Shown here in pieces: positions 20,745 to 54,966 of a stretch of DNA of 64,000 bases. The position numbers and the translations under genes were made by a program. Under the pieces are notes generated by a model. The model was not told the origin of the DNA. It did not search any database and saw only the letters and a program-made list of their open reading frames with translations. The stretch lies in NCBI GenBank assembly GCA_964023275.1, contig OZ029914.1, positions 49,740,530-49,804,529 on the forward strand, in the 5' to 3' direction. Numbering within the stretch: the first letter of the stretch is position 1; each line of letters opens with the position of its first letter. Source of the stretch: Norana najaformis. Lineage: Eukaryota; Annelida; Clitellata; Crassiclitellata; Hormogastridae.

Positions 20745-23700
20745 TCAGAAAAACAACCTTGGTTTGTGTGAAGCTACCTTTAGTAAAACATGCTTGAAAG
20801 AGTCGGAGATATAGATGAAATCGTTACCAAAGTTTTCTGCATTCTGTCGGCTGTTAAGGACTGGTGGTTCCATGCCGACTTCTGCGTTTCCTGCTTTGGC
20901 AAAATGAGTACATAACACTAGTCATTATTTAGCACAATTATTATTATCATCCATTTTATTGTCTCATCGTTATTATCACCATCTTCTTTTTAAACTTGCT
21001 CAATGTTAGCACTTTCATTATTTATATAATTTACAATTAATCATATAATTTTGATTGCATATAATAATCGATATTAGTACTAGACCTGATTTTGTAAACC
21101 TTATTTTATTCATAATTACATTCATACGTGTACTTTAAATGTTGCTGATTCTTATACAAAACCAACAAAACGGTTGTACCTGCGGCATATTCCATTAAAT
21201 CGATGTATCCAGCGTATACAGGTGGCGCCTGGAGGATTCTTGCTGGACCAACAACTTCTGCAAATTTAAGTATTTGGCTCTAATTTTGTTCAAATAGAAT
21301 ACGTTGAATCACAAAATACATATACATGTCCGCCATGTTTTCGATTGATCAAATTTGGTTTACAAAAACGCAATAAGTCACTACTGGGATACTACAGCAT
21401 CTACTGAGACTCAACAATCCAAAGGATTATGACTTTTGACGACGGCTTCACGTGCGGTGACCATCGGTTGATACCTTGTGATTATCTAGTGCACCAATTA
21501 TGTAGATTCAATCGTCAAAGTGTTTGAACCATCGTTTACAATCCATTTCTGTGCTTGTTTGGCTTAGAAAAGATTGTGACAGTATGACAATCTGTGTAGA
21601 GTGTAGAGTTTTATACGCTACCGTAGCTTGTGTTTCTCACCATTTGGATTCGCCTCAACACCCGGCAATATGTCTGGCTCATTGTTATCATTCCCTCGTT
21701 GCACTCTTGACAAAATATGTCCACACAACTCTGTTTAAAACACATTATCACGATCGTCAAAATAATATTCATCATTATGACTATCTTTCCACAATCATTG
21801 TTGCCACTCAGCGTCCTCATGTCATCATTCTTAAAATCTTTAATATTGCAAACCGTGTCGACGAATGCAATAAAATTTACTACAAGTTCTTAATTCTACA
21901 ATTTATTCTTTTAATTTTGTTAATTCAGCGTACGACTATATATTAACTGAATAAGATGACTCTTTTAAAATCAGGTGAAATAAAGCATGAACAAGGCTTC
22001 GAAGTGTTGTTTCGTCAGCTTCAATTACATTGTTGAAGGATACTGGCAACAGGAACTTTGAAGCCTTGTTCATGCTTTAAGAATTGCTTCTTGTTTCATG
22101 TCTGCGAGAAATGGATATATCTAACGGATTAGATTACCTTTGAAGTAGGTTCTGCTGATAATTAAAATTGTGATCATCAGAATGAAGCACAACGCGCCCA
22201 TGGCAATTGTCACATTTTTAATCATATTTCTTCCTATAATACATTTGGTTAACAGTTAATGTTTTAATTGTTATTATTTGACAACAGCTTTAACAAATAA
22301 AAACTTATGATTTGTAATGAGAAAATAACAACAAATGTCCAATCCAATCTAATCCATTCTAATATGATAACTTTTACAAATCCTTTTAAAATACACGTGC
22401 ATTTTGTTAAACCTACTCGAGATGATGTTTGACAATTGGCAACCATTTGACCTGAAGCAAGAGCGGAACCAGTGCTGTGTACACTGTCCATATTTTCCTC
22501 AAACTGCTTATAGAAAGCAATGTGCAAATAATAAAGAACAGCTGTGCAAATGGGCGGATTCAAAAAACCACTCCAGTCATGCACTTCAGCTTAAACTCAG
22601 GTTGTAGTTCCAAGGCAGTTCCTATGTGTCAGCCAGTTGTTACATAAATTGCAACAGAAGTACATTTCTTACCTTTGATAGTAACAGTTACTTCCTTCTG
22701 GACAACATAACTGGTCCCATTAACCAAGTTTTCTGCCGTGCACTCCAAGGTATATTCCTGATCGTTTTGACTAGCAGACATGTTGAGCAATAGTTCGGAT
22801 CCAACTGTTGCACCTGAAGCACCAATGTATCTCCATTTGTAATCAGGCTCAGGATTAGCATCAGCATTGCAACGGAGTTGTGATCCAATTTCGTAGAACT
22901 CCTTCACAGGCGTTATTGTTACGTTTCGAGGCCCATCTACATGGTTCAAATATATAAAACTTTTAAGTCACGAATGAGGAATTGTACTCCATAGATTAGT
23001 CGCAGGTTTTGAGATTACAGTCTAAAGATATTAGCTTGAATTTAATTTGAACCACTGAAAAATTGAAAACTAATGCGATAATATTAATAAAAACAATTTT
23101 AGATTAGATTAGAAAGTTAAATACTCAAGTCTATTTTTCTCACATGATAAAATGAAAACCAATCACATTTTGGTAGTGTATTATTTCAATAAGCTCGGAA
23201 ACTAATAAGCCACATTCCGACATATAATCAATATTAAAAATTCGAGCTTTTTAAAATAATACACTAAAAAATGTATTTCTAAAACGCCTGGTTGTACTGA
23301 TAGTGAGAAATAGCGCACAGCATAGATATGACATATATCTCAGGCAAATGTAAAACACGGCTGCTATGGCGTAAGCAAAAATGTTCCTAGTACTTCATCT
23401 ATATTAACACCGATTGTTTAAAACTATACAATGTTTCAAAGGAATATGCGTTATTATGAAAAACACTTACAATGTACTTTAATTGTGATGTTCCACTCAT
23501 GAACGTAATCTGGTACATTTGTAGCGTTAGTCACAATTGAACTATAGAGGGGAGCAAAGAATGTCTTGCAGGAGAAAATTGCTCCGTTATCACTGGAATT
23601 TACTTTAACTCTAAGAGTTGAAATAAGAGTCCGAGAACCAGAACTGTCATTACGATACGATTCAGATTTGACTTCAGCGCCATGCTTGAACCATTGCATT

Positions 23701-25061
23701 ACTGGACTCCAAATTCCGTTGTAGCTTATACTGCACGACACTGCTAAGGTTTCGTTTTCCACAGTGTAGTTTGAATTTCCAGACAAGTAACTTTCACACA
23801 AAGGATCCGAAGCTAAAACAACAGAAATCAAAATCAAAAGCTTTTCTTAGAAGTATCCTAATTAGTGAAAATGGGCAAACCGAAGCCAGACGCTGATGAC
23901 TCTTAAGTAAGGATCGCTATTATTACAAGCTTTACGATAACTGAGAAATTCGCATGTTTTCGAAGCAAACATTTCAGTCTGTTTCTTCAGTAATCTATAG
24001 TATCATAAAAGGAAACCAGTTTCCTAAAAAGCCCTTGAATAACAAATAGAACAACACAGTACGATGGCTGTACAGCGCATGTTGTTCAAAACAAGTGTAT
24101 TATAATAGACTAATTATTACGACAAATTCACTTAGTATTTATTGTCCTATCTTCTTGAAAGAATACGGTGCAAAGTAACGGACGTGCACTAACGTTTTGA
24201 GAAAATTACTTTTGCACATTCTTGTCAAACAGCCAATGAAACTGCTTAAGCATGTAACAATCTGTGCTTTAAAATTTCTTTAAACTGATCCTACTTTTTG
24301 TACATACCTAAAACAATCAGTTGTGCTTTGGATGAAACTCCGCTAACAATGGATGAGTTTGAATGCAACATGTAACATTCATAAATGCCAGCATATTCTA
24401 GTTTGGTGTTGTGAGTTGCTAGATCGTGACGTCCCACTGGTTCATTATCAACTGAAAATTCCCAATTCAATTGTTTGCTGAACGTATTCCCATTGTACAA
24501 TATAATTCGGCTATTATTGATTCTTCCCTCCTGAAAGTACCACTGTGTCAACAAATTTGAAGTCACTCTACATTCCATCCTCATAGGATTTCCAACGTGT
24601 GTCACCATATTCAAAGGCTGCCGTATTAAGGAATTGTCGGACAAAGCTGTTTTGTATAAAAAAATATATTTAAACAAAGTGAACTGATTTTTACACGGTT
24701 ATTAGTTGTACACAAATGATTCCATTTTAACGTTTATGCATTAGAACTTAAAATTTTGGAACACTCAAAACTGACAGTAACATTAAGGCACTGCAATAGT
24801 TATACACGTGTGGAATGAAGTGGGTGGTATTACTGTTTCACTTGACACTATCATAGCTTTTAAGAGGAAACTAGGAAGGATTTGCAATTAAGGATCCCCG
24901 GTGATTTGCTGAGTTTCTAACAAAAACACAGTTGAAATGTCTTCTGAACTACTTACAACTCATGTTATGTGTAAGCCACAATAAAATGTAACATAAAACC
25001 TACCGAGTGGAGTAACTACACAAATTAAGATCCATGCGATGGTACTTCGATATCTAAACAT
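20745..25061 (-). CDS. IgSF receptor I-1: signal, three Ig domains, class A membrane exon, tyrosine tail
   Basis: Exons in order: signal 25061-25004 (MFRYRSTIAWILICVV), Ig1 24646-24308, Ig2 23812-23471, Ig3 22936-22673, membrane 22233-22138, tail 21257-21180 and tail 20890 to stop at 20745. All joins are GT-AG and phase 1; about 440 residues. Ig cores: Ig1 MECR...QWY...YAGIYEC; Ig2 VSCS...MQW...NGAIFSC; Ig3 LRCN...WRY...YTLECTA. The membrane exon reads VTIAMGALCFILMITILII, then SRTYFK. The tail has PPVYAGYIDLMEY and FIYISD. The last exon may instead splice at CTAAAG/GTAGCT (20778). Many NxS/T sites suggest a glycosylated surface protein. The ectodomain is nearly the same as I-2. Ligand unknown; tail exons are less certain than Ig exons. 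Confidence 0.8.
21180..21257 (-). CDS. Class A cytoplasmic tail exon of I-1 (YxGYIDL motif)
   Basis: This is a 78-base phase-1 exon between acceptor AATTTGCAG and donor GCAG/GTACAA. It encodes EVVGPARILQAPPVYAGYID followed by LMEYAAG. Three tyrosines lie close together and YIDL is a YxxL motif. The segment matches the tail exon of II-2 (EGEPLPYDGYMDLAEL at 54.9 kb), which supports it as coding although both are too short for ordinary ORF detection. Confidence 0.7.
21981..22079. repeat. Perfect 20-bp inverted repeat (hairpin)
   Basis: TAAAGCATGAACAAGGCTTC at 21981-22000 is the exact reverse complement of 22060-22079, with a 59-base loop. The arms continue imperfectly inward (GAAG/CTTT). It lies in the intron between the membrane and tail exons of I-1 and could be a tiny foldback element. 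Confidence 0.85.
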
Positions 25062-25915
25062 ATTCTGGATATATCTTCAAGCTTCAAATAACAGATTCTG
25101 CCCTTCAAAACTAGTACTTGGCGATTCTGGATGGCTACTGAAGAAATTATCACGTTTGTTAGTTGAAAAGCAGTGCAAGCGGATGCTGTGGATTCACGTG
25201 ATGCTAATGACTGGTGAAGCCATAAAGTGCAAGACAAACACAGCCGACTGGATGTTGCATAGTACAACCGTACAATAGGTAGCTATTTGTTATCTTGCTA
25301 TTAGCTTGATTAGAAAGCATATAGCCGGAAACATATGAACCACGTATCTTACAGCCATATTAACTTTGAAACAAGAAAAACATGTTCTTGTTTGAAAAAC
25401 AACATATTGCTAATATATAACTTGGCAATCTCAATATATCAGTGCTTGTAAAGTCTGCAAGATTTTGAATACACCCGACCTGACTATATTACCAGGCACT
25501 AGTTGAAGAATTATGTGTATTAATATTCACACAATGTTTAAATCTTTTAACATGTCAGAAACTGGCTCAGTAAAAACTTGAGACGATTTAGCTGCTGCAT
25601 GTCAGAAATTGTCTCAGTAGCTTAAGTAATCTACATGTCTACGCAAACAGCAAAGACAAAGTAGGTAAGCTTATAAAAAACCTAGAGAGAAACTAGAGAA
25701 AAAAGAAACAATTCAAGATTAACTCTAAAAATTATTTAATTGATATGTACTAATATTCAAAACATCAACCGTTATCTGCTAAATACTACAATGCTACTCT
25801 ATGAAGTGTGATATTGTTTGTTACTTTGTTACTTGTGTTGCTTTAGTTACCAACCTTGTATAATCGCCATTTAGTAAAAATGATAATATAGGTTAACTGA
25901 GTTTTAGTGGGTCTA
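22490..25915 (-). repeat. Left arm of inverted duplication I
   Basis: This arm is the reverse-complement homologue of about 28010-31295. It covers the promoter side, signal exon and all three Ig exons of I-1 with their introns. Homology stops just after the Ig3 exon, so the membrane and tail exons are not part of the duplicated segment. The arms are separated by about 2.1 kb that holds pseudogene I-p. Confidence 0.85.
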
Positions 25916-26457
25916 CTCAGTCATCTGAACTGCTTCGATATTGCTCATAATGAGTCTTCATAGTCTTCTCTTCTTAAGCTGCATGAGATCATGTAATGTA
26001 GGTAGTACTATTGAATTTTTATGGAAATATATGTATAAACCTTTGTGAAATTGAAGAGTATCAATGTGATTATTTTTGCAAAAGCCTTGACGGTATGTAA
26101 AGAATGCAGCACTGTAGCTTTCCCTTGACAATGATAATCATGCATTTGCGTTATTAAGAACCTTACATATTTCCGTATATATTTTCTCTATTCGAGCCAA
26201 TTGCAAGATAACAATTAGCTACCGTGTTTTGGTTGTACTGTGAAACATCCAGCCGGCAATGTTTGTCTTGCACTTTATGAGCTTACCAGTTATTAGCATC
26301 ATTTGCATCCGCAGCATCCGCTTGCATTGCTTTTCAAATAACAAACGATATAAATTGGTTCATTAGCCATTCAGAATCGCCAGGTTATTACGCATTAAAA
26401 TACTTGTTTTGCAAGGACAGACAATTGTAATTTTAAATTTGAAACTATAGCCAGATT

Positions 26458-27497
26458 ATGTTTAAATTCCAAAGGATAATCTCTTGGAGCTTACTTTGTT
26501 TAATTGTTCACGGTGGTTTTGGTGTTGCGCTTTGTATCAATCTAATCTAAGTGGTTCGAATTGTTAAATTCAACTGCATTAGTGCTATAATGAAATTATT
26601 TTCTTGCAACTGATAATGCTGTTTAAAGCCATTTTAAAATGTTGATATTCTGCTTACACACTGGAACTTCATCCAGTAATTACTTCATCATGCAGCCTTC
26701 AAATTTGGTGGTATATGTTGGAAAGCCGATGAGGATGGAATGCAGGATGACTTCAAATTCTTTGACACAGTGGTACGTTCAGGAGGGAAGGTCCAATACT
26801 AGCCGCATTTTACTGTACAATTGGAAGACGTTCAACAAACAATTGAATTGTGAATTCTCAGTTGATAATGAAGCAGTGAGACATCGCAACCTACTAACGC
26901 ACAACATTAAACTAGAATATGCTGGGATTTATGAATGTTTCATGTTACACTCAAGCTCATCCAGTGCTAGCAGATTTTTATTCAAAGCACAGCTGATTGT
27001 TTTAGGTAAACATTAAAAGTAAGATCAATTTTAAGAAATCTTAATGGATAGATTTTAATATGCTTAGACAGTTTCATTGGCTGTTTGACAAGAATTTGTA
27101 AGCATGTCATATCCTCACAACAATAGAACACGTATCATTAGTTTGCACTGTATTCTTTAAAGAAGGTTGGACAACATAGACTATGAAAATAAGATCTTCA
27201 GCTTCTGGTTTCCATTTGCCGACCTTTCAGTAGTTAAGGTGCATCTAAGGAGAACTCTTGATCTTGATTTCTATAGTTTTAGCTTCGGATCCTTTGTGCA
27301 ATTTGTCTGCAAATTCAAACTACATCGTGGAAAACGAAAGCTTAGCGATATCGTGCAGAATAAGTTACAACGGAATTTGGAGTCCAGTAATGCAATGGAT
27401 TAAGCAGGGCGCTGAACTCAAATCTGAATCGAATCGTAATGACAGTTCTGGTTCTCGAAATCTTATTTCAACTCTAAAAGTTAGAGCAAATAAATAA
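26458..27497 (+). pseudogene. IgSF pseudogene I-p (truncated family I copy)
   Basis: A signal-like segment starts at 26458 (MFKFQRIISWSLLCLIV). Ig1 follows at about 26670-27005 (MECRMTS...YAGIYECFML, donor TTTTAG/GTAAAC), and the first half of Ig2 at 27293-27497 (ASDPLC...) ends at an in-frame TAA. The rest of Ig2, Ig3, and the membrane and tail exons are absent. The Ig1 acceptor CAG seen in I-2 is CTG here, and no clear donor follows the signal exon. About 250 bases of upstream sequence are homologous to the I-1/I-2 promoter region. It is probably a dead tandem copy in the loop of the inverted repeat. Confidence 0.8.
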
Positions 27498-28009
27498 AAT
27501 AAATCCAATAATCGGACACTATTTTAATCTACGAATTTGCCTTCAGTTGATATTCATTTAACCGATACCAAAACAATGGAAAGCTGAGTAGGCACCATTG
27601 TATTTCTCTGGCTGTCATCATCCAAATACTAGTTTGGCTCAAAGCACTAGTTATTTTAATTCCACCAACCAGTGTCGTGTAAGCAAATTAAAATAACGTA
27701 AAATAAGAGATATTTTGAATAGCTTAAGAAAAAATTTCCAAAGAAATAAATATTTAAAGTAAAATTGTTTTTAAGGCATGAGAGAATTCGCAGTAAATAG
27801 TTTATAGTTAAAGCAGGCACAGTTGCACACCGGATAAAACTGCTTCTAAAATATCTGAAATATCTGCTCATATCTTTTTTCTGTTTTAAATTTTAAATTT
27901 CAATTTAGCCGTTTTGACTTCTCATCCTCAACAGCAAATTTAGAACCATCGTATACAAAGAAACACACAAAGTTGATGTAAAGGTCAAAAGGTGAACCAA
28001 AAAGGGTAC

Positions 28010-31000
28010 AGTAGACCCGCTAAAACTCAGTTAACCTATATTATCATTATTACTAAATGGCGATTATACAAGGTCGATAACTAAAGTAACACAAGTAACA
28101 AAGTAACAAACAATATCACACTTCATAGAGTAGCATTGTAGTATTTAGTAGATCACGGTTGATGTTTTGAATATTAGTACATATCAATTAAATAATTTTT
28201 AAAGTTAATCTTGAACTGGCTCTTTTTTCTCTAGTTTTTCCTCTAGGTTTTTTATAAGCTTACCTACTTTGTCTTTGTTGTTTGCGTAGACATGTAGATT
28301 ACTTAAGCTACTGAGACAATTTCTGACATGCAGCAGCTAAATCGTCTCAAGTTTTTACTGAGCCAGTTTCTGACATGTTAATTCGTCTTAAGATTTAAGC
28401 ATTTTGTGAATATGAATATACATAATTCCTCAACTAGTCCATGGTAATATAGTCAGGTCGGGTGTATTCAAAATCTTGCAGAGTTTTCAAGCACTGATAT
28501 ATTAAGATTGCCAAGTTATATATTAGCAAGATGTTGTTTTTTCAAACAAGAACATATTTTTCTTGCTTCAAAGTTAATATGGCTGTAAGATACGTGGTTC
28601 ATATGTTTCCGAGTATATGCTTTCTAATCAAGCTAATAGCAAGATAACAAATAGCTACCTATTGTACGGTTGTACTATGCAACATCCAGTCGGCTGTGTT
28701 TGTCTTGCACTTTATGGCTTCACCAGTCATTAGCATCACGTGAATCCACAACATCCGCTTGCACTGCTTTTCAACTAACAAACGAGATAATTTCTTCAGT
28801 AGCCATCCAGAATCGCCAAGGACTAGTTTGAAGGGCAGAATCTGTTATTTGAAGCTTGAAGATATAGCCAGAATATGCTTAGATACCGAAGTACCATCGC
28901 ATGGATCTTAATTTGTGTAGTTACTCCACTCGGTAGGTTTTATGTTACTTTTTATTGTGACTTACACATAACATGAGTTGTAAGTAGTTCAGAAGACATT
29001 TCAACTGTGTGTTTGTTAGAAACTCAGCAAATCACCGGGGATCCTTAATTGCAAATCCTTCCTAGTTTCCTCTTAAAATCTATGATAGTGTCTAGTGAAA
29101 CAGTAATACCACCCACTTCATTCCACACGTGTATAACTATTGCAGTGCCTTAATGTTACTGTCAGTTTTGAGTGTTCCAAAATTTTAAGTTCTAATGCAT
29201 AAACGTTAAAATGGAATCATTTGTGTACAACTAATAACCGTGTAAAAATCAGTTCACTTTGTTTAAATATATTTTTTTATACAAAACAGCTTTGTCCGAC
29301 AATTCCTTAATACGGCAGCCTTTGAATATGGTGACACACGTTGGAAATCCTATGAGGATGGAATGTAGAGTGACTTCAAATTTGTTGACACAGTGGTACT
29401 TTCAGGAGGGAAGAATCAATAATAGCCGAATTATATTGTACAATGGGAATACGTTCAGCAAACAATTGAATTGGGAATTTTCAGTTGATAATGAACCAGT
29501 GGGACGTCACGATCTAACAACTCACAACACCAAACTAGAATATGCTGGCATTTATGAATGTTACATGTTGCATTCTAACTCATCCATTGTTAGCGGAGTT
29601 TCATCCAAAGCACAACTGATTGTTTTAGGTATGTACAAAAAGTAGGATCAGTTTAAAGAAATTTTAAAGCACAGATTGTTACATGCTTAAGCAGTTTCAT
29701 TGGCTGTTTGACAAGAATGTGCAGAAGTAAGTTTCCCAAAACGTTAGTGCACGCCCGTTACTTTGCACTGTATTCTTTCAAGAAGATAGGACAATAAATA
29801 CTAAGTGAATTTGTCGTATTAATCAGTCTATTATAATACACTTGTTTTGAACAATATTCGCTGTACAGCCATCGTATTGTGTTGTTCTATTTGTTAGTCA
29901 AGGGCGTTTTCGGAAACAATTTTGCTGGTTTCCTTTTATGATACTATAGATCACCGAAGAAATAGACTGAAATGTTTGCTTCGAAAACATGCGAATTTCT
30001 CAGTTATCGTAAAGCTTGTAATAATAGCGAAGTTAGTTAAGAGCCATCAGCGTCTGGCTTTGGTTTGCCCATTTTCACTAATTAAGATACTTCTAAGAAA
30101 AGCTTTTGATTTTGAATTTCGTTGTTTAAGCTTCGGATCCTTTGTGTGAAAGTTACTTGTCTGGAAATTCGAACTACATTGCGGAAAACGAAACCTTAGC
30201 AGTGTCGTGCAGTATAAGCTACAACGGAATTTGGAGTCCAATAATGCAATGGTTCAAGCATGGCGCTGAAGTCAAATCTGAATCGTATCGTAAAGATAGT
30301 TCTGGTTCTCGGACTCTTATTTCAACTCTGAGAGTTAAAGTAAATTCCAGTGACAACGGAGCAATTTTCTCCTGCAAGACGTTCTTTGCTCCCCACTCTA
30401 GTTCATTTGTAACCAACGCTACAAATGTACCAGATTACGTTTATCATTGGAACATCACAATTAAAGTACATTGTAAGTGTTTTTCACAATAATGCATATT
30501 CCTTTGAAACATTGTATAGTCTAAAACAATCGGTGTTGATATAGATGAAGTACTAGAAATATTTTTGCTTACACTATAGCAGCCATGTTCTACAATTGCC
30601 TGAGATTGGTTTTCATTTTATCATGTGAGAAATATCGACTAGAATATTTAACTTTCTAATCCAATCTAAAATTATTTTAGTAATGTAATCGCACTAGTTT
30701 CCAATTTACAGTGGTTGAAAATAAATTCAAGCTAAAATCTTAAAACTGTATTCTCAAAACCTACGACTGATCTATGGAGTACAATTCCTCATTCGTGACT
30801 TATAAGTATTGTATATTTGAACCATGTAGATGGGCCTCGAAACGTAACAATAACGCCTGTGAAGGAGTTCTACGAAATTGGATCACAACTCCATTGTAAT
30901 GCTGATGGTAACCCTGAGCCCAAATTTGAATGGAGATACATTTATGCTTCACCAGTCGGAGTTGGACGCGAACTATTGCTCAACATGTCTGCTAGTCAAA

Positions 31001-31295
31001 ACGATCAGGAATATACCTTGGAGTGCACGGCAGAAAACTTGGTTAATGGGACCAGGCATGTTGACCAGAAGCAAGTAACTGTTAATATCAAAGGTAAGAA
31101 ATGTACTTCTGTTGCAATTTATTTAGCAACTGGTTGACACGAGGGACCACATCTGCCTTGGAACTAAAACCTGAGTTTAAGCTGAAGTGCATGACCGGAG
31201 TGATTGTTTGAATTTACCCTTGCACAGCTGTTCTTTATTATTTGCACTTTGCTTTCTATATTCAGTTGGAGGAAGGTATGGACAGTGTGTAATAA
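28010..31295 (+). repeat. Right arm of inverted duplication I
   Basis: Inverted homologue of 22490-25915. The inner boundary is shared text near AGTAGACCC(G/A)CTAAAACTCA, and the outer boundary lies about 200 bases after the Ig3 exon. Protein differences rise with distance from the centre: 1 in Ig1, about 9 in Ig2 and about 15 in Ig3. Confidence 0.85.
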
Positions 31296-32058
31296 ACGTC
31301 AAGATCAAAATTAGAGGTCAAAATATTTTTAAAATAGAATTCTTACTCTACATTTATTCTGATTTAAAAATTCAAATTTTGTTAAACCTGTGATAAGTAG
31401 GCCTAATAAAAGTTATATTCTTATTGTTGATTGCACATTTAGTAATCAAACTATCTAAATATAAAAAAACAAACATTCGAAACTATTAGCATAGTTCTAC
31501 ATGATTCTGCATTTAAAGGCCTATATGCAGTTTTATACATCAATCTGCCGAACCCAAAACAAAGCTGAAAGCCTGCATGCAAGATCTCTAGGAAAGATAC
31601 ACAAAGTAAGACCACAGCTACTTGGGAAAGACAATGTAAACGAAGACATAGCAAGACTTGGACTAAACATTAGAGAAGCATTGGACTTATCAAATGACCG
31701 AAAAGCATGAAGATCATTTAGTCATAGATCAATCGCCGCCAAATTTCGCATAATTATGTTATATTTATCACACTTTTTTGGCAAACTCGATTGAATCTGA
31801 CATTGAATACCACGAAAACCGACCTGCAATACACAAGTCAACGGATATTATTGAATTTCTCTCAGTTTTTTCAGTGGCCAGTAATTACAATTATTAAAGG
31901 TCCTTTAGCTGAACTTAACTGTTTCCATTTTAGGAGAGCGGTCTTTGGCTTCCGCATATGTTTTTGGAGTTGTTGGAGCAGGTGGAGGAATCGTCTGTAC
32001 AGCAATTGCTTTCTTGATACCATTACTTCTGAGACGAAGGAAAAAGAAAGGTTTTTAA
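28875..32058 (+). CDS. IgSF receptor I-2: signal, three Ig domains, class B membrane exon, short basic end
   Basis: Exons: signal 28875-28932 (MLRYRSTIAWILICVVTPL), Ig1 29290-29628, Ig2 30131-30472, Ig3 30830-31093, membrane 31934-32058. All joins are phase 1, giving about 375 residues. Ig domains are as in I-1, with conserved Cys pairs and Trp (MECR/YEC, VSCS/FSC, LHCN/LECT). The membrane exon is unlike that of I-1: ASAYVFGVVGAGGGIVCTAI, then FLIPLLL and a basic RRRKKKGF before a TAA. I found no tyrosine tail. The only possible donor there, AAAG/GTTTTT, is poor, though a tail exon could be missing near the N run. Either the receptor is short-tailed and needs a partner to signal, or the 3' end is incomplete. 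Confidence 0.8.
31535..31745 (+). mobile_element. LINE reverse-transcriptase remnant in I-2 intron
   Basis: The translation LLGKDNVNEDIARLGLNIRE, then ALDLSNDRKA, resembles the last residues of a non-LTR reverse transcriptase (GL...EA..L..DR..W). It is a fragment with no other domain, sitting between the Ig3 and membrane exons of I-2, outside the duplicated arm. Confidence 0.5.
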
Positions 32059-32550: not shown

Positions 32551-32583
32551 NNNNNNNNNNNNNNNNNNNNNNNNNNNNNNNNN
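32551..32583. other. Assembly gap (33 N)
   Basis: A run of 33 Ns. The sequence immediately after it is already inside an Ig exon of gene III, so the signal exon and most of Ig1 of that gene are lost in or before the gap. The true gap size is unknown. Confidence 0.98.
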
Positions 32584-37324: not shown

Positions 37325-37374
<50 letters not shown>

Positions 37375-40213: not shown

Positions 40214-40301
<88 letters not shown>

Positions 40302-41645: not shown

Positions 41646-44600
41646 AAGTCAATGGGAATAACGTTTAAAATAACCTTTTAAATTGCAATTCAGATAACTG
41701 TACTAACGACAGAACGACTGATTAATAGATCAATGTAAGGTCATCTGTAACTGCTTACCTGTCTCGAATTAACCTCGATTGAAATCCCCAAGCGCTGTGA
41801 CTTAAGCCACCAGTTTGCCGCACGGCGCTATTGACAGTTTGGAATGAATTTAATGAACAAATCTAATACCAATAATATAAAAGAAATTAATTATAATTTT
41901 TGAGGCACGTTTTTAGAAGAAATTGAATGCTGAAGCAAAGTCACTCTAAACGGATCACTCTGGCCGATCTTCGAAGTATATATGGCAAAAGGAAAGCGTC
42001 TAAAATCTCGCAGTCTGACTTCATTTTGAGCAAGATGTTCTAGTTTAAAAACGTAAGACGTGTTCGGGAAGTGTGTGTGTGTCTTCGGTATAAGAAGGCT
42101 TTCATCTGAGATGATTGCCACCAAGGTTTCAAAGTTTGACAATATATTCACATACATAAGCCTGCAGACGTAAAAACCAAGACACACACATACATACATT
42201 ATATAATACCGACTTTTAAAAACTAATATCTGGTTGCAACGGAGACTGATTTCGTCAGAGGTGACTCCTCTATGTTGATTTAATAGGCAAATCGTTAAAT
42301 GTTACCTTCTGTTGGGCAATAATTATAATCGTGTATTTGGTGAATAAATTAAGGTAAGGTCACTGAGCAACATGTGGTTATGGGTAATACGATGGTATGT
42401 AATACTGTGGCGTTACCTTACGAACTATTCATTCATCAACAGCGCAGAATCACGGCACCAATTTTAAAGTCTCTTTCGCGAGAGGGAACAAATTCTACAA
42501 AAATTCTAAAACAAGGCATGCACTGTAACCACGTTGAAAATTACCGAGTTCCAGCTTCTATATTGAGTTACCACAATTAAAGCCGAACTATTTGAGAATC
42601 GTATATTGAGAATAGTCTATTGAGAATAGTGAAATTTTAATCAGGTAATTAATATGGAAATGATATTTATGTCCATATAGAGTAACATTGTGTGATAACT
42701 TACGGCATGTTTTTGCCGAATACTTCCTCACTTTGAAATGAGGGGAAACTCGTCTAAAGAGATTTGGACTTATAATTTATTTCAAAATGAAATCGTTTTT
42801 GTTCTGACTTAACATGCATTTAGTTTTTTTTCATGCAATTGAGAAGACAATGATACAATGGCGGTTTAAAATACACCGTTTGCAAAGAGGACCTTTGAAA
42901 GAGGACTTTTTAACGGGAAGTAAGTGGAAAGATAAGTTGGCTGGACGGTGTAAAATATAAGTATATGCATACATTTCTCTAAAGCGACCGTATGGCCTCG
43001 ACCCTGCTTATTTTCAACACATTTATCGGGCGAGATCCTTCCTCACTGCTGCCCATTTGAATGGGCATTACTTCATAAAGAATGAGGCAAGTTTTAAATT
43101 GGAAAACAAGTAAACAAGTAAGACAGCTATTCGCTTGTCTAATAATAGATAAAGTTGGGCGGCAATCAGACAGACAACCAGCAAAATTCAGTCTGACAAC
43201 TGAACTGCGAATTAGAAAGACAGAGAATCGGACACCCCGTCAGCCATAAAGTCATCTAGACAGTTATAGAACGAGTTGACAAGTCAAGCAGACTGACGTT
43301 CTTGTAGCATAATCGACTTGGAGTTCACAGGCCATTATGTCACCATAATACTAACATGGTCTGCGTTCGAGGTTCGAAACCATTGATCGGACATGTAATC
43401 CGTAGGGAGAGGCTGTTCATTTGTTGGAATGTTGTTACCATATTCGCGCTTCAGTTGAATTATTCTTCCACTCCTGAACCACACCTCTAAGGATTAATGT
43501 TCAAAGAGTCAAGCCGTTAACGAACCATTATCATACCAGGTCTGACCTTGTTTGACCTTACATGATCTTAACTGGCTTTAGCTAACCTTATCAATCATTA
43601 TCATGTACAATTTTCAGACTGAAATTTAATAGCACTATCTAAATTTCAGTTTACATATTTCTAAAGTTTTAGGAGTTTGGTATACTATTTATATATTAAT
43701 CAGCTTTCAACAAGTAGACTCTCCGATCATAAGCTTGCATTTTCACATTTCGTTATTTTATTCTAGGCTAATTTGCCCTAACTGTTATGAAACTCATGTG
43801 GGCATAATCAAGAAAACTGAAACAGTATGGGCCTATACATGATTTTACTAGTCGAAAAACAAAAGACAAACAACAACTCCCTTATTGACTCTGTTACTAA
43901 CTACACTGTAAAGCAAATATTATAACCTGCTTACTTGGACTCAAAAGAAAATGCAATAAAACTGCAATTTGAGTTTCTACACGCTTTGCTGATGGCTTTT
44001 GTGTGCAAAATATGCCTACATATATATGCCAACTTAGCCTACACTTTTAAACCTTCCAATGGAAAATATTACTCTAGTAGTTCTGCATTAATTAAGCCCC
44101 ACTATCTAATAACAAAAACATCAATCGATGGCGCTGAGCAATTGTATGTGCAGGACTTGTTCAAGGATAATATTATCGCAAAAGTAAAAAGAAAAGGCTA
44201 TCCCATCGCTGAATGACTGTGTTATTCTAAAGCATCGTCAACTCGAGCAATACGATGTAGGCGTATAAACGCACTACGAAGTACTACATTGTACAATAGG
44301 GTTAATACTGTATTAATATTTTCATTTAATTGTCTAACTTATTTTGTATTTAAAACATTACAGACTAACAACAGACAACTTAGTGAAGTGGTTTAAGCTA
44401 AATTACAGGTACATGCTTTTGTGGTGCAATATTCGACCGCATGATTAAGCAAATCTACATCTATGTAGAGATTATTTTAGCAAATACTTAAAAGCCATAT
44501 TGACATGCTACATTTGCCGTTTAAAGAATAGCCTTTAAAACTGTGATCGCCTTCAAAAACCAGAAAGTTTACCAAGAAAGTCATGCAAAGAAACAGTTCA

Positions 44601-44692
44601 ACGTTGTTTCTTAGACTTCACGCTATATCTTGTCGAACTCGTTGATGAGTAGTTCTCGGTATTTGAGAAGATGACATCAGCAACGAATGTTT
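41646..44692. other. Intergenic stretch
   Basis: No supportable gene. It holds the third copy of the ~95-bp dispersed repeat (42981-43075) and a possible SINE-like GTTCGAGGTTCGAAACC segment near 43370. A small open frame at 43935-44216 has no recognisable features and I do not annotate it. Confidence 0.6.
42981..43075 (+). repeat. Dispersed ~95-bp repeat, copy 3
   Basis: AAAGCGACCGTATGGCCTCG, CTGCTTATTTTCAACACATT and CCCATTTGAATGGGCATTAC match the two copies at 1.05 and 1.19 kb, in the same orientation. Confidence 0.75.
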
Positions 44693-47600
44693 CTATGTAG
44701 GCTTAAAAGACGGTAATACATTGTAATAAACACTTGTCTGATCATTGTCCCAGTTTGTATCTACGACCTCATAAATAGACGTTACTTCATGTTCCGGCGT
44801 ATGTGAACTTTCAACGATAGATGATCGCCTCACCATCCCCTCATATTCACCTATGGGTTGATGATTTTACTCTCCATTGAATAAATCAGCATTTGCACCC
44901 GACTTTGTCTTTTGTTGTTGCGAACCTGATGATACATACAGTGGACATTTCCTTCACTAGCTAAACCACTTATAAGTTTATCGATATACGTATATGTGAA
45001 GGTAATACATTTTGTGTACACGGGTCCATAGATATCCCTCAGAAAGTCAAAGGATCATTCGACTGAGGGGCACGACCACAACAATCGCACGACACGATAA
45101 TTTTTAAACCTAAAAAAATGTAATGATCCCGAAAGGATGGAGGACTGAGTATGTACTAGGTGGCGTGGCATTCAACGAACGGTCACCCAGCCGGGCACTA
45201 ACCGAGCTCAAAGTTGCTTAACTTTAATTCAAACGGCCACCATGCTTGTTGTGTATCCAACGCAAGTTCACCAAAGGAATAGCATTTGTGTTAGCCGAGG
45301 CACGATAGCCAATTAATTGTTTAGAGCGCTCGGCTTGTAATGCGGAGAGTACGGGTTATACCATTTTCCGCGGAGATTTCTGTGTAAGGAGCCTAGAGCA
45401 AGTCTTTCACTCATAATTGCTCAGCGTCATCGATTGATGCTTAGTCAATAGATTGTGGCACTTAATAAATGAAGAAATAATAAATGACAATATTAGTGCT
45501 AATAATAATTGTAATCTTAATTCCACATTTCTATAGCGCCCATCTTTACAAAAAGGTGTTATATTTTTTATAATAGATTTAATCTGTATCAACTTTCATT
45601 ATTTAGGAGTGAAATTCTATAGAAAATCAAACTGTGGTAGCACTAACCGTCTTGGTTTGGTTTTCGCATGTGCAATCGTAATGTGAATACTATAACACTG
45701 GTTATAATTCCAACAAAAACCCCAACTAATCCGAAAATGTATCCGCGAATTATCAACCAGACATTTCCTGCAAACATAATACATTTATTTTACTATTTAA
45801 TACGACCTAAATATTGTCAAAATGGCGAAATTAACATCTTCAAACCAGATTAGTTTCTCAAACGTTTTACATTTTCAGAGAAATTTGCACAGACCTTACA
45901 GAGATAACCAAGACCGGTGCATTTTAAATAATTTCAACCGTTATTGATAAAATTGCATAGGTTCAATTTTTTTAAAGTTCCAATAGTGAGAAAATGTGTT
46001 ATGTTTTACCCAAAATATCTGCGTCACAATTCTTCTTCGCTAAACTGTATGCAGACATAGCCCTACCTTTAATTTTGACAACAACTCTGGTGGACGTTGA
46101 CAATCTGTTTCCTCTCACCCAGTTTTCAGCAACACACTCGTACACATATTCAGCGTCGTGATCATTGGCGGTTTTCATAATGATTATTTCAGATCCATTT
46201 ACGGTACTTGATGTCTCCGTATCTATCCATCGATAAACAGGGCTTGGATTGGCATCTGTTGCGCAGATCAGGCGACTTCCAGGTTCGTAACTGTCCAGCA
46301 GAGGTATAACGGATATGTTCCTTGGACCATCTGATATTTCAATCAATAAATTAGTACCGCATCATTATTTATTTGAAGGGGTGCTGAAAAGCCTTAGCTT
46401 GAAGCCCTACAATTTAAATTATAGCACGGATAACTGAATACCGAGCTGCTATTATAATGTGGTGTAGCTGAAGAACGCAGTTAACATTTCATTAAGTTAT
46501 AGTCATCGCCTCTCAAGTGAAGAATTGTAGGTCCGCCTTCTTTATATGCTACTATTTTATGTGCAGTTGCGCAAAATGCTATTTATTATATCAAAATATT
46601 GGATATATTTTTAGCGGTCTAAAATCTCTCGATCAACATATGAACATATTCGACGTCAACATGACAGCAGCAAAAGGACACCGAATCGCCATGATAACTC
46701 TCTTGTTAACTTTCTTCTAAGCTTCATCATTTATCGTTACTTATTCCAGCCTTTTCTAGGTTCAGTATTGTCCTCAAAGACTTTGATTGCTATCCTGTAT
46801 TACACAGTGCTATAAGATGCAACATTTTGTACGAAGTATTTTGCACATTGTTATTATGGGACAAATGCCACAGCCTTGACGACAATTCCTCTTTCAATGT
46901 TTTCTAATCAAGTCCAGATTTTAATAAAAATTTAAAAGAAATTATTGGAGAACATTTCAAATGCTCTTTGCTGCATATCGTTTAAACAACTTACTGATTT
47001 TGTAATAGAACGAAGGTAAATTGTAGAAACTCACATTCTACATTGATTGTAATGTTCCACTGATGCACGTAATCTGGAATGTTCGAGGCATTTGTTGTAA
47101 CTTGATTTTCAGACGCAATGAAATGTGTCTTACATGTGATAACAGCGCCATTGTCGTTAGAATTGACTTCCATGATGACGAATGAAGACAAACTTTGGGA
47201 CCTTGGCGATTGACTGAGAGCAGACTCCAAGGAATGACTACGATTTTGTATTTGCTTGAACCATTTCATTGTTGGAACCCATCCATCAATGTAGTATACT
47301 TCGCATCGCATCCAGATAGTGTCAAACTCTGTTGCAATGTGGCCAGAATTACTTAAATTGGACCTGCACATTGGATCCGATGCTGAAATTCAATTTGTTC
47401 AACTAAAAAACTCGAACACCTAAGCCAACGAAAAAGCAAATGAATTTTTATATCACCAATAATTGCATTAAGGAAAGTCAGAACTATATATTGCAAAAAC
47501 ACACGGTTCTTCTTGCATACTGGTTAACAACATTACGAAACTTTATGTTTTAAGTCTAAATTCAAGTTACAACTTTTGTAATGAACCAAAAACGTGCTTT

Positions 47601-48582
47601 AATGATGGAATTACTATAGTAAAGTCAAAGATAATTTGCTGTTTTTGTGGATCCTGTTCTAAAACCTTGAAATCTAACGCTTTGTGCTTCTGAGAAGTTC
47701 ATCTGAATTGTGCTATACAAATTTACAACTATAATTACAGTTGAGCGAATTACAATTACATGCAAAGCTTATATTCAATTAAATCACCTCGAACATCTGC
47801 ACATCGCTCAACCTGATGTAGCTCAGTTGAATTCAGTATATTCTACATAACAATGCTTGTTTGCAATGCACATGCATATCCCGATTTCTCTGATAATGAA
47901 ATAGCTCCTGCGACAAATCTTATCTTAAAATCTGCCAGAAACACTTTACCAATCATATATAGTCTTTTTTTAAAATAAAAATGAATCTACATACCCAGCA
48001 CAAGCACTAGAGCTTTGGCCGAATATTTTTGGACGGTAGCAGAGGAAATTGACGATATCAGTGCGACACATTCATAAACACCGGCATGTTCCAACCTTAT
48101 GTTCTTTGCCAGAAGATCTCGTCGTTCAACACTCCAATTATCAATCAAAAAATCACCCACGAATATTTTAGTACTAAACGCCAATCCATTATAAAGTAAA
48201 ACGCTGTTTGCTTTAGTGTCAAGCGCCTGATAGTACCAATGAGTCTGAGAATTATTAACAACTCCGCATTCCAGTCTCATTGGCTTTCCAGCAACGACGG
48301 CTAGGTTGGACGGCGTTGTAGTAAAAACATCCTTTCTCGTGGCTTCCACTACGCAACGTAAAATAAATAGAATGAACTTATTACAATTTTATTATAAGGC
48401 AATATGTCACATAATACTCATACCAACATAAGTGACAATTTACTAAAAAATCTTCAAACAACTAAATTATCGAATTAAGTTGGGTTATGAAATTATATCT
48501 GATTCAGTTTCTCCAGTACGGAGAAGTCTCACTTACTTGAAATGACTTCAATTGCAAGCAAGACAGCTATCGATAAAATCAT
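44693..48582 (-). CDS. IgSF receptor II-1: signal, three Ig domains, class B membrane exon, ITIM-like tail
   Basis: Exons: signal 48582-48537 (MILSIAVLLAIEVIS), Ig1 48348-47995, Ig2 47382-47035, Ig3 46330-46067, membrane 45767-45648, tail 44850-44693. All joins are phase 1, about 429 residues. Ig1 has RLECGVV...HWYYQ...HAGVYECVAL; Ig2 MRCEVYY...MKW...NGAVITCKTHF; Ig3 LICATDA...YRW...YVYECVAEN. The membrane exon (GYIFGLVGVFVGIITSVIVF, then basic HMRK) would reach a stop just past the donor GACG/GTTAGT, so splicing to the tail is required for signalling. The tail reads (G)EYEGMVRR, TSIYEVV and TSVYYNVL. SIYEVV and SVYYNV both fit the S/I/V/LxYxxI/V/L rule for ITIMs, 11 residues apart. Inhibitory signalling is inferred. 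Head-to-head with II-2. Confidence 0.8.
45290..45475 (+). repeat. tRNA-derived SINE
   Basis: ATAGCCAATTAATTGTTTAG, AGCGCTCGGCTTGTAATGCG and ACGGGTTATA resemble a tRNA head (A box, anticodon arm, weak B box). The body holds CATCGATTGATGCTT and ends GTGGCACTTAATAAAT, as in the SINE at 55.2 kb. It lies in the intron between the membrane and tail exons of II-1. Confidence 0.7.
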
Positions 48583-50751: not shown

Positions 50752-53700
50752 ATGATTTTATTAATTCATATTTTGTACGCATTTGAAGTTATTTCAGGTA
50801 AGAATGTGCTCCCTAATACCTTTTGAATATTATAATTTTTCAGAAAAATCATTTCTTGCGAAAATATGTGAAATGGCATGTAGTTATTTTCAATAATTCA
50901 AAGAAGAAATATGCAAGCAAAAATATTATGTGATGTATTATATTAAAACAAATTTGTACGAGGCTAAGTTTATGTGTATTTTACTTTCCTAGTGGAAGCC
51001 ACAAGAAAGGATATTTTTACTACAACGCCGTCCAACCTAGCCGTCGTTGCTGGAAAGCCAATGAGACTGGAATGCGGAGTTGTTAATAATTCTCAGATTC
51101 ATTGGTACTATCAGGCGCTTGACACCAAAGCAAACAGCGTTTTACTTCATAATGGAGATGCGTTTATTACTAAAATATTCGTGGGTGATTTTTCGATTGA
51201 TAATTGGAGTGTTGAACGACGAGATCTTGTGGCAAAGAACATAAGGTTGGAACATGCCGGTGTTTATGAATGTGTCGCACTGATATCGTCGAATTCCTCT
51301 CCTATCGTCCAAAAATATTCGGCCAAAGCTCAAGTGCTTGTGCTGGGTATGTAGATTCATTCTTATTTTTAAAGAACAGACTATATAAATAGTAAACTGT
51401 TTCTTCTATTTATTTATTTATTTATTCATTTATTTTATTTAAAGCACTTAGAACGCGCTCAGTGTCAGTACACCTGAATCTGAGGCGCGGTTGTAGATGT
51501 TAAGATCACATTGTCGCAATTGCTATTTAATTATCAACATAAGCAGTAACATGTAGAGTATATTGAGTTTAATTGAACTACATGAGTTTGAGCGATGTGC
51601 GGATGTTCGAGATGATTTAATTGAATATTATCATTGTAAAAAATTGAAATTCGCTCATCCTCTTAAATTCAATTGCAACTGTAATTGTATTTGCAGATTT
51701 GTAGAGCACCACTTCAGATGAACTCCTCAGACACATAAAGCATTAGATTTCCAGATTTTAGAACAGAATCCACAAAAAACAGCAAAGTATCTTTTACTTT
51801 TCACTAGTAATTCCGTCCTCAAAGCTCATTTTCAATGCAATATAAAAATTTTTACTTGAGTTGCTAACTGGTATGCAAGAAGAACCGTGTATTTTTGCAA
51901 TATATAGTTTTTACTCACTTAATGCAATTATATGAGGTATAAAAATTCATTTGCTCTTTCGCTAGCTTACGTGTTTGAGTGCTTTATTGTACAAATTAAA
52001 TTTCAGCATTGGATCCAGTGTGCAGATTCAATTTAAGTAATCCTGGTCACATCGCAGCAGAATTTGACACTGTCTGGATGCAGTGCGACTTTAACTACGC
52101 TGGTGGATGCGTTCCAACAATGCAGTGGTTCAAACAAATACATAATCGTAGTCATGCCTTGGAGTCTGCTTTTAATCAATCTTCAAGTCCCCAAAGTTTG
52201 TCTTCATTCGTCACCATGCAAGTCAATTCTGGCGACAATGGCGTTGTAATCACACGTAAGACTCATTTCACTGCTTTTGAAAATCAAGTTGCAACAAGCG
52301 CCTCGAACATTCCAGATTACGTGCATCAGTGGAACATTACAGCTAACGTAGAATGAGTTTTCAGGTTCTTTTTTCTTGATGACCGGCAAACGGTATGCTA
52401 GCAACATACTGTAGTTTCAAAGGCATCGATTTTATGAATGTTAATGCAGCTTCAATTGCTTTTAATCATATCTAGCACTATTTTAAAATTATATTTTGAT
52501 TGCATGAACAAAAATCATGATTTATTTGAAGATTTCACTACAGCTCCAACGGAGTTTTATATTGTTCATATGAAATTTTACTTAATTAGTCAGTTAAGTA
52601 TTTTAAAGTTTTAGCAACTTTTACATGCATGTAGTAATAGTTCCAATGTTTAACGGCACCTTATGCCATCATAGGCCGTTGACGTCGCCCTCCTCCTGTA
52701 TTCAGGCTTAGGACTGGCACTATCCGAGTAGGCACTGGCGGAGTTACATGTAGGTAAGTATGTATCTAGATATTTATATAGCTATATCGCGCCTTTCAGT
52801 AACCTATCAAAGACAATTAAATCTAATAGCATATTTCACAGATGGTCCGAGGAGCATTTCAACTCAACCTCTGCTGGACAGCTACAAAATCAACAGCTAT
52901 CTGCCGTGTGAAGCTGACGGAAATCCAGCTCCTATGTATATTTGGAAAGACATTGTAACACTGACAATCACAAATGGCTCGACAGTAGTAATTTCGAAAG
53001 ACGTTAGTGAAAAAGATGTCGAGTATATGTACGAGTGTACCGCTGAAATATGGTGAGAGGTCACAAGATGACTAATTCAACCACGGTCACAGTGAGGATA
53101 AAAGGTTAGTTTTTCGGGAATCTTTGAGGGAAGACATCATATGGTAGTCATGTACATGTAACCTCTGCCTACTTCACTTCATGACACACGACTTTGTAAA
53201 GATTTGAATTCGGTTGCGTTGCTGTACGAACATTCAAAGTCCCAACAGAAGCCTTAAACAACCCTAAACGTTTGTAAACAAAGCCTTCCTACCCAGAAAA
53301 ACTACGCTTGTGAGCGGCTTTTATCCAGGCATGAAAATACATTGTCTGTTGTCTTTGCACTTTGCCATCTGTAACTGAAATTGTTGTTGTGCATCAGGGA
53401 TTACTTTTGTTCGCGAGTTTGAGCCTACTCTGTTTTATTTCAGGGGGTTACGCCGTGCGTAACGTGACTATTGCCATGGGAATTCTTTGTGTTCTGTTGA
53501 TGATATCACTATTCTACATCAGCAGAACGTATATTAAAGGTATCTGATATAATGATTTTGTTTTCCAATTTATTTTCAAGACATGTGAATATAACTGCAT
53601 TTTATTTCGGTTTATTACAATCTTAGACAGTGCCTTCCTTGAAATAATGCATTGATGTCTAGAATATACGACAAGGCTAAGGTTATGTTAGGCGCGTTGT

Positions 53701-54966
53701 GTTAACTAGATCTTGACGTTGCTATCTTTGTATGGGTTTCGACACCTTTCTCTCCAATGAATGGTAGTTTTGGAATGCAAATTTAGCTTAGAATCGACCA
53801 TCATATTACTGATGTCTCGTGCAATACATTCCAGTGTGAGAACTTCTATAGTACCACTCCGATGCTCAAGGCATCAATCGATGGTTGACACTAAGAAAAG
53901 TCATTGTATAAGCCAGATTCCAGGGTTAGTCTAGTTGAAAGCCAAAAATGGAATCAAAGAAGATATAAAAACAGCCGCCGACGGAAGAAATAAGTCCAGG
54001 AATAGGTGCTGTCGAAGTTTTCAGAGTAGACCAGAACGTATAGGAATGCATTGGATGGATTCGAATATATTAGAATAATTATTTTTGGCTAGCTTAGAAT
54101 ATATTGAAATTGATTTGGATTAGATTAAATTATATGAGAGTAGATTAAAATAGAGTAGGTAAGATATAGATAACGTGTAGACTAGAATGGAACTAGATTG
54201 GACTTACTGTAATTGCATTACTGTAGATTAGATATCAAAGTAAATGTTGCAGAACATTCAACTTTCGTGAATACAGTTTTCTAGTGAAATTTTAGACTGT
54301 TGTGGACATATGCAATTGGCTTTTCGACGAGGAGAAGAAAACAGTGAACCAGATGTCGTACCAGGCGTTCAAGATATCGCTGAAAGTATGGTTACACTTA
54401 TTCTGAGTTTCAGAAGATTTCAGTTTATAAATAGTCTATGTCTGTAATCTTTGATGACGACAACTCTGTTTACATTGAAAACCAGTACATCACTGAAACA
54501 CTGATTTAGATATATTTTTCTGTCGATATATTAATTACTTTTGCACTCTTTTTGAAATGACGACCTCCTTGGTAAGGATCATTCTTAAATTAAGTAATAT
54601 GCTTGAAAAGGATGCAATGCCTAGCAATTCTTAACGAAAATGTCTTGTTTGACGCTTCTTTTAGTTCAAGCGTTTGTTACTGATGCTCTGCAGCATTCCT
54701 CTTAAGCTGTGGTAAATCAATTCTTGGCTGATATAAACCTGACAGCCACGTTCGTTGGGTCTGAAAAGGGTCCTCAGATGACCAGTAGTTGCTACAAATG
54801 TTACACTGGGGGGCCACTATTTGCTCATTAAGCGTGGCTATCTGGGGATTAAGTCGTTAAAACGTAAATGATTTGGAAGATTCAACTGTCGTTTGTAGAC
54901 TATAACAATCCAGAAGGAGAACCTTTACCATATGATGGCTACATGGATCTTGCTGAACTGCCGCAG
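50752..54966 (+). pseudogene. IgSF II-2: class A homologue of II-1 with several lesions
   Basis: Exons by alignment with II-1: signal 50752-50797, Ig1 50993-51346 (about 90% identical to II-1), Ig2 52007-52354, Ig3 52842-53104, membrane 53444-53539 (NVTIAMGILCVLLMISLFYI), tails 54296-54385 and 54899-54966. Three lesions: the second Ig2 cysteine is Arg (codon 52255); the Ig2 donor has lost its GT, so translation meets TGA at 52354; and Ig3 lacks one base near 53052 (263 instead of 264 bases), giving an early stop after TAEIW. The membrane exon matches I-1, not II-1. Tail exons encode DCCGHMQLAFRRGEEN and NPEGEPLPYDGYMDLAEL. It is either recently dead or damaged by assembly errors; the Cys loss argues for real decay. 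Confidence 0.75.
51410..51500 (-). mobile_element. LINE 3' end with ATTT tail
   Basis: An (ATTT)n run is followed by AAAGCACTTAGAACGCGC and CAGTGTCAGTACACCTGAAT, matching the 3' terminus seen at about 58.93-59.0 kb and, inverted, at 9.90-9.97 kb. It sits in the intron between Ig1 and Ig2 of II-2 and is absent from II-1. Confidence 0.7.

Follow-up and report, generated by a model that had tools for sequence, protein, structure and literature searches.

The question raised by a 64,000-nucleotide stretch of the genome of the annelid Norana najaformis (contig OZ029914.1, positions 49,740,530 to 49,804,529; the window in what follows) is how neighbouring genes of the immunoglobulin superfamily (IgSF), arranged head to head, come to share their outermost immunoglobulin (Ig) domain and to differ in their membrane and cytoplasmic parts. 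Five IgSF genes and one fragment were found within 20.7-55.0 kb of the window, and they appear to belong to a larger cluster of single-pass receptors with three Ig domains, several of them in head-to-head pairs. Based on the evidence presented below, we consider, with a probability of about 0.7, that this is a paired-receptor system in which the first Ig domain (Ig1) is maintained by gene conversion. The gene models are spliced readings of the DNA sequence of one assembly, relying on AG/GT borders and phase-1 Ig exons; the Ig and transmembrane (TM) exons conform to these rules except for the Ig2 donor of gene II-2, which is lost, and the TM exon of I-2, which is terminated by a stop codon. The flanks were examined over 100 kb on either side of the window, plus 60 kb more on the right, and are numbered in window coordinates. 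The genome searched comprised 608,420,607 bases in 17 contigs, and match counts are lower bounds.

The head-to-head order claimed by the initial annotation was borne out by the spliced reading, with I-1 on the minus and I-2 on the plus strand and, in the second pair, II-1 (also II-B) on the minus and II-2 (also II-A) on the plus strand. Together with pairs IV and VI outside the window, four head-to-head A/B pairs are located within about 170 kb. The predicted spliced products comprise 470 amino acids (aa) for I-1 (minus), 375 aa for I-2 (plus) and 429 aa for II-1 (minus). The same annotation had assigned membrane exons of one class, A, to I-1 and II-2 and of another, B, to I-2 and II-1, and the shuffle scores agree. 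Class A is a conserved exon of the VTIAMG type (I-1, 22138-22233, minus; II-2, 53444-53539, plus) and class B a glycine-rich exon (I-2, 31934-32058, plus; II-1, 45648-45767, minus), which is also found in the fifth gene of the window, gene III (35789-35938, plus). The II-2 exon was located by tblastn and the others by spliced reading, with shuffle tests for all five and the genome search for the two class A exons.

For the window genes, cores and flanks of the TM exons were shuffled separately, 2000 times per comparison. The A-A score (I-1/II-2) was matched by none of the shuffles and the three B-B scores, including III, by 0 (I-2/II-1), 23 and 14, whereas A-B scores were matched by 279-945 in the four comparisons between pairs I and II and by 279-973 in the six that include III; the two membrane exons of pair I have no similarity (765/2000). 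When the flank genes were included and a score was required to be matched by no more than 10 of 1000 shuffles, this was so for 10/10 A-A, 6/10 B-B and 1/25 A-B comparisons, the last being I-1/VI-B. The class A exons are therefore a closely knit family, and class B is a looser assemblage in which I-2, II-B, IV-B and III cohere and VI-B is linked to III alone. Genome-wide, the class A membrane exon gave at least five matches (five candidates, all five scored), all of them in the cluster and 4/5 in A/B pairs. The possibility that one gene uses both classes of membrane exon by alternative splicing was also considered and was rejected, as tblastn over the window detected no second-class exon beside any gene; the additional membrane-exon matches in the window were weak (E 0.07-0.5) and fell elsewhere or in other exons.

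In contrast to the membrane exons, Ig1 is nearly identical within all four pairs, with 111/112 aa in pair I, 106/117 in pair II, 111/117 in pair IV and 107/110 in pair VI (91-99%). The domains past Ig1 range from 95% to about 35%, with 104/113, 84/115, 109/115 and 36/105 aa for Ig2 and 72/87, 34/67, 47/86 and 29/83 for Ig3 in the same order, the pair II value for Ig3 counting only the part before a break in II-2. Identity is consequently graded along the ectodomain, from 99 through 92 to 83% in pair I and from 91 through 73 to 51% in pair II. The Ig exons had been described as close copies in both window pairs; this applies to pair I and to Ig1 of pair II, but less to Ig2 of pair II and hardly to its Ig3. 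The signal peptide (with ATG), Ig1, Ig2 and Ig3 exons, in that order, are at 25004-25061, 24308-24646, 23471-23812 and 22673-22936 (minus) in I-1; at 28875-28932, 29290-29628, 30131-30472 and 30830-31093 (plus) in I-2; at 48537-48582, 47995-48348, 47035-47382 and 46067-46330 (minus) in II-1; and at 50752-50797, 50993-51346, 52007-52354 and 52842-53104 (plus) in II-2. All were obtained by spliced reading, and the Ig exons of I-1, I-2 and II-1 were supported by Pfam as well.

The extent of the shared DNA differs between pairs. The arms had been expected to end right after Ig3, which is the case in pair I, where arm 1 (22481-25917, minus), homologous to arm 2 (28010-31288, plus), stops about 190 bp past Ig3 (22481 / 31288), but not in pair II, where they stop at the end of Ig2 (47027 / 52360). 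In pair IV the shared DNA also ends with Ig2 (122780 / 128050), and in pair VI only Ig1 and its upstream region are shared, with 97.3% DNA identity across 1391 bp ending about 23 bp past Ig1. It is thus the outer domain, and not the whole ectodomain, that is constant across the pairs.

One way to obtain such genes would be by recent partial inverted duplications, in which a 5' half was copied in inverted orientation before an unrelated 3' half, producing chimaeric adhesion genes with no coupled signalling. Such an origin would account for the course of the common tract in pairs I and VI, which starts before the signal peptide and breaks off within an intron. Taken alone, pair VI and pair I (synonymous divergence, dS, of 0.01 in Ig1, 0.10 in Ig2 and 0.11 in Ig3) fit this origin as well as they fit conversion; for these two pairs it may be the alternative. 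Pair II argues otherwise, since its Ig1 exons are 95.5% identical and its 5' intron (of which only the approximately 68 bp adjoining Ig1 lie inside the blastn block) and upstream DNA 50.5% and 62%, respectively, whereas a single event would leave intron and exon equally similar. Furthermore, the Ig3 and TM exons of pairs II and IV point back to the same early separation of A from B: A-B dS values in II/IV are 0.04/0.13 for Ig1, 0.26/0.14 for Ig2, 1.2/1.7 for Ig3 and 3.1/1.8 for TM, and those of the same class (A-A, B-B) between the two pairs are 0.04-0.36 over all four exons. That each of the four pairs consists of one A and one B gene also speaks against partial duplication, and as a general explanation we regard it as unlikely.

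Conversely, the data point to exchange between partners. The best low-divergence tract of pair I (25839-24213) has 2.2% divergence versus 7.9% outside, and that of pair II (48351-47972) 4.5% versus 21%; neither was reached in any of 1000 permutations. Approximately unbiased (AU) tests on the window genes (I-1, I-2, II-1, II-2, and III for all but Ig1) grouped Ig1, Ig2 and Ig3 by pair (alternatives p ~2e-6, <1e-40 and 0.003/0.018, respectively) and TM by class (pair tree p 0.004). In the quartet of pairs II and IV, Ig3, TM and the Ig1-Ig2 intron follow class (alternatives p <=2.6e-4), and the Ig2 exon of IV-A has a higher raw identity to B genes (95-96%) than to A genes (87-90%). Because of the dS gradient, the tracts, the incongruent trees and the contrast between intron and exon, exon-scale gene conversion, strongest at Ig1, is the process we favour, and A and B seem to be old, distinct genes between which the outer exon was copied.

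An assembly artefact, in which two haplotypes were joined in inverted orientation, was also weighed. The region contains one gap of 33 N, the arms of pair I are up to 98% identical across 1.1 kb and the tract of pair VI reaches 97%, as such joins could produce. Nevertheless, all four pairs, each at its own place, consist of partners with different 3' halves, and the genome contains two places that match the pair I Ig3 piece, at 100% and 90% identity, so that an artefact appears highly improbable.

Whether partners with a common Ig1 would also signal differently, as the initial annotation held, depends on their tails. Two immunoreceptor tyrosine-based inhibitory motifs (ITIMs) are present in II-B (SIYEVV and SVYYNV; tail exon 44693-44850, minus, from spliced reading and shuffle test) and in IV-B (SLYEVV and SVYYNV); shuffling the tails 5000 times gave this number of ITIM matches (three overlapping, two motifs in each tail) 3 and 4 times, respectively. 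A second branch of class B tails, formed by III and VI-B, is rich in YxxI/L motifs, with four in III and three in VI-B (10 and 48 of 5000 shuffles), and each carries one pair resembling an immunoreceptor tyrosine-based activation motif (ITAM), with an 11-residue spacer (III: 111/5000 shuffles). Classical ITAMs have a spacer of 6-8 residues, shorter than the one seen here. The tail exon of III (41288-41646, plus; spliced reading and shuffle test) contains YDSI, YAPL, YNHL and YYNI. The I-2 protein is nearly tailless, as its class B membrane exon is followed by eight basic-tail residues, RRRKKKGF, and a stop.

In class A, a GY[IM]DL motif was found in the tails of 5/5 genes, the broken II-2 included, that of VI-A being read from an open frame with no splice test. 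The tail of I-1 (minus) is made of exon 1 (21641-21730; spliced reading, tblastn), exon 2 with AGYIDL (21180-21257; spliced reading, motif) and exon 3 with the stop (20745-20890), which is the weakest exon call and has no convincing relative within the window. In II-2 (plus), exon 1 (54296-54385; spliced reading, tblastn) is 50% identical to that of I-1 (E 3e-7, window) and exon 2 with DGYMDL (54899-54966) has a length out of phase with I-1. The expected difference in output is therefore visible in the ITIM pairs of II-B and IV-B and in the GY[IM]DL of class A, but does not extend to the near-tailless I-2 or to the ITAM-like III and VI-B. On the strength of these motifs, partners with opposed signals are plausible in pair IV and in the forerunner of pair II; pair I may or may not behave in this way, and the case is least clear in pair VI. 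For the classes as a whole, the chances that A and B truly signal in opposite directions are about even.

The proteins belong to the IgSF, as Pfam Ig_3 scored above cut-off in the four examined (I-1, I-2, III lacking Ig1, and II-1). Structure prediction of the ectodomains gave a usable model for Ig2 of I-2, with eight strands and a mean predicted local distance difference test score (pLDDT) of 85.5 from 11 sequences, but not for Ig1 (pLDDT 42.6). Among the best 60 of 71 PDB matches, the I-1 ectodomain retrieved a mixture of CEA, contactins, IgLON and antibody light chains and no Siglec, and the Pfam models were generic Ig ones, which gives no ground for placing the genes among the Siglecs. A sushi domain was not matched at E<=0.01 in I-1, I-2, III (lacking Ig1) or II-1. 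Homologues of the whole I-1 protein were not detected in a large protein set, nor relatives in scans of viral and genome contigs. The Ig2 profile recovered six metagenomic fragments of exon size (P0001-P0006), four of them closest to the pair II type (56-63% identical to II-1) and none with usable context, pointing to the presence of this receptor family in other sampled DNA.

Vertebrate KIR, PIR and SIRP are paired receptors, which combine similar ectodomains with opposed tails. CEACAM1/CEACAM3 and CD300A/C follow the same pattern, with gene conversion reported for some. A family-level match to CEACAM, CD300, KIR, PIR or SIRP was not obtained, the Pfam matches of the cluster being generic Ig and the best 60 of 71 PDB matches mixed. 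In a study on primates, paired receptors are defined by similar ectodomains, different membrane or cytoplasmic parts, opposite signalling and overlapping expression (PMC5701461). The first two features are seen here, in the Ig1 identity of 91-99% in 4/4 pairs and in the AU and shuffle results for the membrane exons. The architecture proposed by the initial annotation recurs in four pairs, with 4/5 class A exons paired, although sharing is strongest in Ig1, between genes that otherwise seem old and distinct.

Paired receptors with gene conversion, even head to head, are a kind of system known from primates (PMC5701461). There, SIGLEC11 and SIGLEC16 are described as lying head to head about 9 kb apart. 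Gene conversion has repeatedly homogenised their ectodomain exons together with the upstream region, one receptor is inhibitory and the other activating, and the activating partner is commonly present in humans as a nonfunctional allele (PMC5701461). Within these sources this is the closest known case, as it combines a head-to-head order, an ectodomain homogenised by conversion and a broken putative activating partner (II-2 here). The differences are that Siglec-16 signals via an adaptor, whereas five TM cores tested in the cluster lack a charged residue, and that SIGLEC11/SIGLEC16 are one pair versus four here, with no sign of common descent beyond the Ig fold.

The initial annotation knew of no invertebrate system exactly like this one, and none of the same build was found among the entries listed in open-licence literature, subscription papers lying mostly outside that scope; nonetheless, ITIM and hemITAM tails of FcoR and ITIM/ITAM motifs of Hydractinia candidate allorecognition genes are published, according to PMC12065747. 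The FcoR/fester genes of Botryllus schlosseri are described there as a large clustered IgSF family with ITIM, hemITAM or single YxxI/L/V motifs and adjacent gene pairs (PMC12065747). An FcoR protein has a variable-type Ig, a sushi and two C2 Ig domains, and its partner is a fester gene acting as co-receptor, whereas the present genes have three Ig domains and no sushi match, and both partners share the outer Ig domain.

These systems suggest another reading, in which the encoded receptors, like Hydractinia Alr, would act homophilically in allorecognition or adhesion, with Ig1 similarity serving partner or self binding rather than a shared ligand. In its favour, allorecognition loci are described as holding IgSF genes in clusters, pseudogenes among them, with tails of an ITIM/ITAM-like type (PMC12065747, PMC11067881), and Alr of Hydractinia and Podocoryna in particular as clusters of single-pass IgSF receptors with many apparent pseudogenes (PMC11067881, PMC13119343). 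The likeness to Alr is one of description, and head-to-head A/B pairing with a shared Ig1 does not figure among the Alr descriptions at hand. We consider the homophilic reading improbable.

For the paired-receptor system, the following mechanism can be hypothesized. Recurrent exon-scale gene conversion over the short inverted gap would keep Ig1 near-identical, and Ig2 and Ig3 to varying depth, and both partners would probably bind a shared ligand by means of Ig1, each relaying a different signal. The class A partner would join a VTIAMG-type membrane exon to a tail with one GY[IM]DL, and the class B partner a glycine-rich membrane exon to a tail that carries two ITIMs in the clearest examples; B would be inhibitory where ITIMs are present and A probably activating via its single YxxL, in a hemITAM-like manner. 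B would then damp and A stimulate the same cell, possibly in an immune or allorecognition role, and loss of one partner (II-2; SIGLEC16P in humans) would shift the balance. For shared recognition via conversion and for the opposition of B and A, we draw on the SIGLEC11/SIGLEC16 case and on general knowledge of ITIM and YxxL motifs.

Several observations weigh against this proposal. As regards signalling, the one ITIM match in VI-B does not stand out (1290/5000 shuffles) and the single YxxL of each A tail is within chance (2582/5000 for I-1, 2011/5000 for IV-A), its support deriving solely from conservation in 5/5 A genes; the near absence of a tail in I-2 and the ITAM-like tails of III and VI-B imply that class B does not stand for one signal; and, as the five TM cores tested are uncharged, there is no sign of adaptor pairing. 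Class B itself is loose, since VI-B has no detectable similarity to II-B and IV-B (713 and 440 of 1000 shuffles) and joins through III. As regards conversion, the low Ig3 divergence of pair I means that its arms could equally be a recent duplication, and in the quartet of pairs II and IV the class tree for Ig1 is rejected by AU (p 0.027) and not by the Kishino-Hasegawa and Shimodaira-Hasegawa tests, while for Ig2 the class tree is the best fit (pair tree p 0.05), the other trees not being excluded at 0.05. Pairing is not absolute either: 24 of the 105 possible matchings of four A and four B genes are entirely A/B, which is not improbable by itself, pairs II and IV are not independent, and one of five A genes (V-A) and three of seven class B genes found (III, III- and III+) lie outside A/B pairs. 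Moreover, III- is head to head with a different Ig gene (-7701..-4403), whose Ig1 is unlike its own (22/79 aa); a head-to-head order in this cluster does not always go with a common ectodomain. Finally, II-2 is not intact: having lost its donor, the Ig2 exon continues to a stop codon, arginine takes the place of one of its cysteines (ITRKTHF), and Ig3 is frame-broken. Pair II is thus no working pair in the haplotype as read.

The remaining members of the cluster complete this picture. Between I-1 and I-2 lies the fragment, a truncated partial copy (26167-27491, plus) with signal peptide, Ig1 and part of Ig2, in which, by eye, the acceptor AG is missing at the aligned position before Ig1. In gene III (plus), the end of Ig1 was read at 32584-32631; most of this exon should lie in or before the 33-N gap at 32551-32583, and a whole Ig1 of this type is present in the flanks. 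It is followed by Ig2 (34333-34701) and Ig3 (35141-35416), both from spliced reading and Pfam. Pair IV (B, 124099-118676, minus; A, 126743-131222, plus) is a segmental copy of pair II, with DNA identities of 96 and 90% between B genes and of 82 to 94% between A genes; IV-A has no break in the exons read, its last exon with the stop not being located, and the tail of IV-B is open only with an upstream acceptor in use. Pair VI consists of A (176737-173048, minus, with the tail beyond) and B (180472-186834, plus). The single class A gene V-A (76577-79354, plus) has a frame-broken III-type Ig1 upstream, and the III-type B genes III- (-7701 to -11309, minus) and III+ (107440 to 115619, plus) are also in the flanks, the latter head to head with a relative of the III- partner gene (103039..107440).

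Other elements surround these genes. TRIM-like frames with RING, B-box and coiled-coil occur at 6191-12029 (plus) and 57800-56895 / 65702-64665 (minus), with a copy outside at 91952-85959 (minus); the window copies are inverted and 76-85% identical in DNA, and a class A Ig gene is the nearest cluster member to all three, tail to tail. The open frame after a TRIM-like frame was taken as the NHL part, with no Pfam match, and homologues of the TRIM exon were absent from the large protein set. Duplication of the window with its TRIM-NHL flanks as a mirror-image block in a single event was rejected, given the third close TRIM copy in the flanks and a flank dS of 0.15-0.20, far under the A-A divergence of I-1 and II-2. 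Direct copies of 2.6 kb at 2277-4913 and 59913-62541, 98.8% identical, contain a long reading frame, close to the start of which SCINHPDIFCYICGEYT is read, and resemble a recent mobile element; the flanks hold further relatives that have diverged more (47-55% aa). Small cysteine-rich frames at 14348-14917 and 15761-15988 (minus) have, by eye, an Ly6/uPAR-type three-finger look, the first having no Pfam match. The GC content of the window is 34-39%, and scanning its 64 kb revealed no tRNA and no Rfam family at gathering score.

As to what the cluster means for this family, we would give even odds to the view that an activating/inhibitory paired-receptor cluster evolved independently outside vertebrates, its outer Ig domain kept shared by exon-limited conversion across head-to-head promoters. 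The same evenly balanced judgement applies to one part of it, namely that conversion depth forms a series, with pair VI (Ig1 alone) at one end and pair I (Ig1-Ig3) at the other, and that paired recognition is actively maintained in several pairs. If true, the logic of paired receptors, with one recognition surface, two signals and synchronisation by conversion, would have arisen outside vertebrate immunity; the four pairs would offer natural replicates for why an outer Ig exon stays identical, as well as a concrete set of genes for the integration of activating and inhibitory inputs in an animal lacking classical lymphocytes.

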